Part shown: piece by piece, positions 51,489 through 52,294 of the stretch | How positions within the stretch are numbered: position 1 is the first letter of the stretch | Layout: the number at the start of each line of letters is the position of its first letter | Source: a bacterium HR37 | GTDB taxonomy: Bacteria; Desulfobacterota_D; UBA1144; Nemesobacterales; CSP1-2 | Reading direction: 5' to 3' | DNA length: 52,294 nt | Assembly (NCBI GenBank): GCA_002898375.1 | Contig: BEIN01000018.1 | Coordinates: 1 to 52,294 of the forward strand | The notes under the pieces: generated by a model | What the model was told of the DNA's origin: nothing | The model's input: the letters and a program-made list of their open reading frames with translations, nothing else | Database searches by the model: none | Made by a program: the position numbers and the translations under genes

Positions 51489-51821
51489 TTACTGTACCCC
51501 TTGGGTATGTGGCTCAGGATGGCTTTCCTCATGCATTGTGTCAGTATCTGATTGAACCTTTCTTATAGAGGTTACTTTTCTCTCCTCTATCTTTACCTCT
51601 ACCTTGTCTCCTTCCTTTATTCCCTCTAACATCTTTGGGTCAGCTGCCTTTAGTATATGGGATTTACCGGTTTCATCTTTAACCGTAAACAACCCATCTT
51701 TAATGTGTACTACCTCACCCTTAAGCTCCTGTACTGGGTTGGCTTTTGTCTTTGCAAATGAGCCTACAGTTCCCAGGATAAGCCCAAGGGTTATTAGCCC
51801 AAATGTAAAGAGTCTTTTCAT
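51489..51821 (-). CDS. Small secreted OB-fold-like protein
   Basis: A 110-aa protein with a signal peptide (FTFGLITLGLILGTVGSFA). The mature part KGEVVHIKDGLFTVKDETGKSHILKA then EGDKVEVKIEERKVTSIRK looks like a five-strand OB/DUF1344-type barrel. A His/Glu tail (MHEESHPEPHTQG) may bind metal. AAAGGAGG site. Function unknown. Confidence 0.68.
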   Translation of the reverse strand: MKRLFTFGLITLGLILGTVGSFAKTKANPVQELKGEVVHIKDGLFTVKDETGKSHILKAADPKMLEGIKEGDKVEVKIEERKVTSIRKVQSDTDTMHEESHPEPHTQGVQ

Positions 51822-51960
51822 CTAAGGGTACCTCCTTTGGTGTAAGGTTTATATACCCATATAATGTTTGCAATATCTATACCAGGTTGTTTCTTAGTAT
51901 TTAATTCAGTCTTTTAAATGGGTTAGGTGTATAGAAACACTCCCATTGTGTATTGGTAAA

Positions 51961-51994
51961 CAGTGCAAATTGTGTATGCATACACAGAGCACTG
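51961..51994. promoter_or_regulatory. Composite palindromic operator between divergent genes
   Basis: A perfect 16-bp palindrome TGTGTATGCATACACA (51971-51986) lies inside outer arms CAGTGC (51961-51966) and GCACTG (51989-51994). ATTGTGTAT occurs again in direct orientation about 25 bp to the left (near 51944). It lies 79 bp before the ribbon-helix-helix antitoxin start, the usual kind of site for autoregulation by such an antitoxin. Confidence 0.55.
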
Positions 51995-52072
51995 AACCAG
52001 GCGTATAACTGTGACAACTCATTTCAATTTGGAAAATCAAAAGAAATTCTCTTTATTAAAAGGAGATTAATC

Positions 52073-52123
52073 ATGGGAACTGTAAACGTTAGAATCCCAG
52101 AAGAGTTGAGAGATACGGTGAAC
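52073..52123 (+). pseudogene. Ribbon-helix-helix antitoxin gene, interrupted after 16 codons
   Basis: ATG 52073, with AAAAGGAG ahead, encodes MGTVNVRIPEELRDTV, the N-terminal strand and first helix start of an RHH (CopG/Arc-type) antitoxin. The sequence then passes into the end of a transposon, so the gene is broken. The remainder, if it exists, lies beyond the right edge. Confidence 0.65.
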
Positions 52124-52294
52124 TACTCCCAGCTTACGCAGGGAGCTTCCTGCTTCCAAGAGTTGAGTTGCCCACTGAGAACCAACTCAGCAGGTATTGC
52201 TCTCCTCTCCACAGGCTCTTCGGGTGGTCCCCACCCTGCTAATCTCCAAATGTTTAATGCAGAATTTAGGTCTCTTGGTAACTCAACCCCACAG
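52122..52294 (-). mobile_element. Right end of an IS200/IS605-family (TnpB-type) element, running off the window
   Basis: Read on the minus strand, the end has the tail of TnpB-like sequence (HLEISRVGTTRRACGEE, compare the common RxGTTRxxACG end), a hairpin TGAGTTG/CAACTCA (52164-52170, 52183-52189) and a terminal GGGAG/CTCCC hairpin (52126-52130, 52141-52145) ending in GTAGTTCAC. These are typical of the right end and omega-RNA scaffold of such elements. The visible coding tail has stops in all likely frames, so it is either past the end of tnpB or decayed. Confidence 0.65.

Follow-up and report, generated by a model that had tools for sequence, protein, structure and literature searches.

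A TnpB-type element splits the gene of an RHH-like antitoxin in bacterium HR37, and the antitoxin sequence lies where the guide of the element's omega-RNA would be encoded. This raises the question of whether the antitoxin is a target with a function of its own or whether the match simply reflects where the element landed. We analysed the whole stretch of 52,294 nucleotides (hereafter the window), which corresponds to contig C18 of a genome of 2.42 Mb in 33 contigs (97.6% complete) and whose sequence stops at 52294.

The window ends inside the right end of a tnpB element

The last 177 bp of the window are the end of an IS200/IS605-type tnpB element on the minus strand (Table 1). The tnpB coding sequence reaches into this right end, and its C-terminal frame contains PRDLNSALNI, the last acidic motif and the sole RuvC motif in the recovered part, which we take to be RuvC-III-like. 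The Pfam profile Cas12f1-like_TNB aligned with the C-terminus over positions 46-60 of 60 (E 0.17, below the cut-off), only its last 15 columns being present.

A second copy of the 177 bp opens contig C3 (C3:1-177, 3 mismatches), and both contigs break at the identical base within the element. The window therefore ends at 52294 because its contig breaks inside a two-copy repeat. Five elements of a second tnpB subfamily, located on contigs C7, C13, C6, C8 and C20, have only the last 32 bp in common with the window element. The flanks of all seven copies diverge directly after GTAGTTCAC, which places the end of the element at 52118. The proteins and left ends of the two subfamilies differ while their last 32 bp are alike, which suggests an exchange of ends or a common mobilisation.

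Table 1 Features at the junction of the antitoxin gene and the element (window coordinates)
Feature	Position	Strand	Remark
Ribosome-binding-site-like sequence AAGGAGATTA, upstream of the RHH start	52060..52069	+	inferred from sequence
RHH-like antitoxin gene, first 15 codons (MGTVNVRIPEELRDT)	52073..52117	+	homologues in genomes G001 and G006 continue RDT-LKIIA...
Putative guide segment of the omega-RNA (20 nt of flank), antisense to RHH codons 9-15	52098..52117	-	directly outside the element end
IS200/IS605 element, apparently of tnpB-only type, 3' end and right end	52118..52294	-	truncated by contig end; 7 genome copies with common terminus
Right-end terminal 32 nt; GAA...TTC base closes an imperfect hairpin, end TTCAC	52118..52149	-	common to 7 copies
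tnpB C-terminal 56 codons and stop (...CGVELPRDLNSALNIW...EAPCVSWE, stop)	52123..52293	-	open frame

On the minus strand, the window also contains a gene for a CusF-like protein of 110 aa (51489-51821), whose match to Pfam CusF_Ec (E 0.00066) is below the cut-off. Contig C8 carries a further copy of this gene with its upstream region, and the upstream stretch 51800-51987 is 91% identical to C8:98391-98575 (L021 3392-3576).

The left end and the other half of the antitoxin gene lie on another contig

Searching the same genome with the antitoxin of G001 led to the end of contig C5, which encodes RHH residues 14-71. Read outward from the contig end, C5 carries the start of TnpB (MKLSYKFRAYPSKSTQ...), a left end of 65 nt, TTTAA and then the RHH gene from codon 16 onwards. 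The left end extends from C5:110075 on, and RHH codons 16 onwards run from C5:110074 downward on the minus strand; this half of the gene begins LKIIATLEKRDMKE. The TTTAA overlaps RHH codons 16-17 (TTAAAG on the other strand). Compared with the natural intact alleles of G001 and G006, the two halves (RDT/LKIIA) join with no base lost or duplicated. With the RHH start at 52073, codon 15 extends to 52117, and the element follows it directly. The element is inserted 3' of TTTAA at RHH codon 15/16, in antisense orientation and without target duplication, and the continuity of the RHH gene suggests that the right end on C18 and the left end on C5 belong to one insertion.

These results bear out the preliminary description, which had proposed a TnpB-type element within an antitoxin gene, abutting codon 16. 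Both the tnpB C-terminal coding sequence and the right end are present, codon 15 and the element meet at 52117/52118, and the gene's intact homologues encode RHH-like antitoxins that have ParE/RelE-type toxins as partners. The tnpB gene and left end expected beyond the window were found on C5, the former by its start.

A second left end, on contig C28, is identical to that on C5 over 167 bp including the TTTAA and then diverges, so TTTAA marks each of this subfamily's two left ends. Since the two left ends match, C28 and C3 are probably the two sides of a second copy, which begins after TTTAA, ends with TTCAC and adjoins unrelated genes. Between the two copies, identity amounts to 98% across the right 177 bp and is complete across the left 167 bp, which suggests recent spread.

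The element appears to be tnpB-only and has a sister subfamily

At the left end, the N-terminal part of TnpB matched HTH_OrfB_IS605 (E 1.6e-8). Only 65 nt separate the left tip from the tnpB start, and 5 nt separate the tnpB stop from the right tip (terminus TTCAC at 52118), which leaves no room for a tnpA outside tnpB. The recovered parts of the element are its two ends, and most of tnpB is absent from the assembly; the element therefore appears to be tnpB-only, unless this middle holds more. We take its group to be IS1341-like. A Y1 tnpA is optional in the IS200/IS605 group. There was no match to a Y1 transposase in the recovered element, and two matches elsewhere in the genome both fell on C8.

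The sister subfamily includes a full-length TnpB of 379 aa on C7, which matched guided_TnpB (E 2.6e-94) and the solved TnpB chain 8bf8_A (1.1e-56). A scan of genome contigs with this protein yielded 11 loci, seven of them with GGTAGTTCAC right ends; one further locus (L049) stops before its right end, and no end of this type was present in the 160 nt read at L051, L052 and L058. The TnpB at L049 (1501-2535), on a contig assigned to the bin of a Nitrososphaeria archaeon, is 91% identical to that on C7, pointing to a recent transfer or a mis-binned contig. The copy on C8 (L021 987-1511) has an internally deleted tnpB with a frame of 174 codons and both element ends present. As for the window element itself, its 177-bp right end occurred in its own genome only among 60 genomes (own plus 59 relatives), and a contig scan of genomes with the 56-aa TnpB C-terminus did not turn up a relative of the protein.

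The ends fold into hairpins

Folded as DNA, the right end forms a hairpin (z -2.9; 3 of 200 shuffles as good) at the base of which GAA pairs with TTC. The right end of the C3 copy folds similarly (z -2.1; 8/200), and the hairpin of the left end is weaker (z -1.6; 15/200). Fourteen right ends were folded, namely the seven copies of this genome and the seven GGTAGTTCAC loci. In the latter, elements from Caloramator and Pacearchaeota among them, the form of the hairpin is preserved although its stem is built from another sequence; as all fourteen were picked by their terminal motif, the hairpin they have in common does not count as independent evidence. For the match to right-end covariance models that the preliminary description had asked for, an Rfam scan of 51800-52294 returned sub-threshold matches only (best E 4.7), and Rfam may lack a model for such an end. 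Insertion at a fixed motif without duplication, together with a hairpin based on GAA/TTC, fits the peel-and-paste transposition of IS200/IS605 elements as set out for ISDra2 in PMC8612924.

The interrupted antitoxin gene has apparently lost its partner toxin

Intact homologues of the RHH gene occur in two genomes of the same family, G001 and G006, each followed by an overlapping ParE/RelE-type gene. The toxin-type protein of G001 matched ParE_toxin (E 1.7e-8) and, narrowly short of the profile's cut-off, RelE_StbE (E 3.5e-6). Profile matches of the G001 antitoxin were weak (RHH_5, E 0.048; Arc, 0.044), as were its PDB matches, which include ORF E73 (E 0.017) and the omega repressor (E 0.29), both presumably RHH proteins. 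All four intact homologous loci, found outside the genome of the window, have a ParE/RelE-type toxin gene next to the antitoxin. A search for the partner toxin in the own genome did not find it (best E 0.02, 35% over 34 residues), which suggests that this module has lost its toxin. The RHH gene is also 3'-truncated; it ends ...KREVEEG, and 7 bp separate its stop codon from the tRNA-Glu 3' end. This place (L045 9903-9913) may mark a deletion or integration boundary. From the RHH start codon, an open frame of 74 codons continues into the element, antisense to it, as far as the contig end (52073-52294); this chimeric reading may be a product of chance.

The guide position and what it would target

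In ISDra2, the TnpB-bound RNA consists of the 3' part of tnpB, the right end and ~16 nt of flank (PMC8612924). With the right end at 52118, the corresponding guide extends from 52117 down to about 52098, and by analogy with this literature the flank would be used as the guide of an omega-RNA that would be made alongside an expressed, cutting TnpB. The preliminary description had likewise put the guide antisense to the first RHH codons, and the orientation stands (codons 9-15). Its interval of 52102-52121, however, includes 4 nt of the element and has to be shifted to 52117-52098.

For Sulfolobus islandicus, PMC10640517 describes TTTAA as a demonstrated TAM of SisTnpB1, TTTAT as a predicted TAM, and positions +1 to +10 as the seed of SisTnpB1. 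An uninterrupted RHH allele would have TTTAA next to the guide match and would thus be cleavable in principle. Under the donor-joint model for IS200/IS605, every insertion targets its own uninterrupted site (PMC8612924), and targeting of the uninterrupted RHH allele is accordingly true by construction. The earlier suggestion that an intact antitoxin copy would be targeted is therefore right as geometry, with TTTAA at the place of the TAM, but reads too much into it, since the same holds for every IS200/IS605 insertion.

An uninterrupted RHH copy, for which a search had been proposed, was not found in the 97.6%-complete genome, where the antitoxin query returned the two halves and a weak match (E 0.22). 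A pattern of TTTAA plus 15 bases, allowing up to 3 mismatches, occurred at one site in this genome, the element's own flank, with TTCAC replacing TTTAA. Compared with the 20-nt guide, the RHH allele of G001 has 5 mismatches and that of G006 has 6; among these, positions 7, 9 and 10 (G001) and 7 and 10 (G006) fall within +1 to +10, and both alleles have TTTAG.

Weighing the explanations

Taken together, we consider it highly probable that a tnpB-only IS200/IS605 element inserted into a chromosomal RHH antitoxin gene, that the guide match is a by-product of landing and that it has no special toxin-antitoxin role. According to published TnpB work, RNA from the 3' end of the element would continue past the right end into the RHH gene and guide TnpB to the uninterrupted site to cut there, and a cut at the empty site would favour homologous repair that reinstates the element once it has been excised. 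The RHH gene either already was a toxin-less remnant or has become one, so its targeting has no special role in toxin-antitoxin biology. One could instead suppose that the guide was kept because destroying intact antitoxin alleles in incoming DNA or sister strains benefits the element or host, as an addiction-like or exclusion device. The TTTAA preceding the guide match in an uninterrupted allele agrees with such a function, but this geometry is automatic, no intact allele was found in the genome, and the G001 and G006 alleles combine TTTAG with 5 and 6 mismatches out of 20, some in the seed. Moreover, the second copy sits beside unrelated genes, and the missing toxin together with the early stop of the RHH gene makes an antitoxin-killing role unlikely. 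We therefore regard a functional device as extremely improbable. Very improbable, too, seems a reading in which transcription from the RHH promoter enters the element antisense to tnpB and the guide; RHH transcripts, being perfectly complementary to the guide segment, could then sequester or restrain the omega-RNA, and TnpB would hold the antitoxin locus in a permanently split state.

A greater, though still minor, likelihood attaches to a dead relic, i.e., a degraded right end and tnpB fragment that yield neither omega-RNA nor nuclease. At least one copy of the sister subfamily has an internally deleted tnpB (C8, 174-aa frame), and no Y1 transposase was seen in the element, both of which are in line with decay. 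Against this, the recent spread suggested by the two near-identical copies and the open frames at both ends speak against a relic. Assemblies err in repeats, and the contig does end in one, so the junction at 52118 might be artefactual. Yet it coincides with the terminus common to seven copies, and on C5 the matching left end adjoins the remaining part of the RHH gene, which leaves such a chimera the faintest chance of all.

Relation to known elements and implications

The window element resembles ISDra2 and IS1341-like IS200/IS605 elements in its fixed pentanucleotide 5' of the insertion, the absence of a duplication, subterminal hairpins and a tnpB that reaches into the right end with the flank in guide position. 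It differs from ISDra2 in its motif (TTTAA instead of TTGAT) and in that no tnpA was seen, its middle being unsequenced. As in Sulfolobus islandicus, where one subgroup has TTTAA and the other TTTAT, this genome harbours two subfamilies, one that follows TTTAA and one whose common left end begins TTTAT. There, TTTAA goes with tnpA plus tnpB and TTTAT with solo tnpB (PMC10640517), whereas here the TTTAA element appears tnpB-only. The interrupted gene is akin to type II RHH-ParE/RelE modules, given that each of the four intact homologous loci has an RHH-like gene overlapping one of ParE/RelE type. In contrast to such modules, the antitoxin here is split and 3'-truncated, with its toxin not found. 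Judged by titles and the beginnings of abstracts, literature on TnpB with toxin-antitoxin systems and on IS605 with antitoxin genes contained no such arrangement.

For a TnpB subfamily that was not hit when genome contigs were scanned with its 56-aa C-terminus, the locus provides a clean natural insertion, with both ends, a target motif and relatives whose alleles are naturally empty. On present evidence, the match to the antitoxin carries no special meaning, and the insertion predicts TTTAA as the target motif of this TnpB subfamily.
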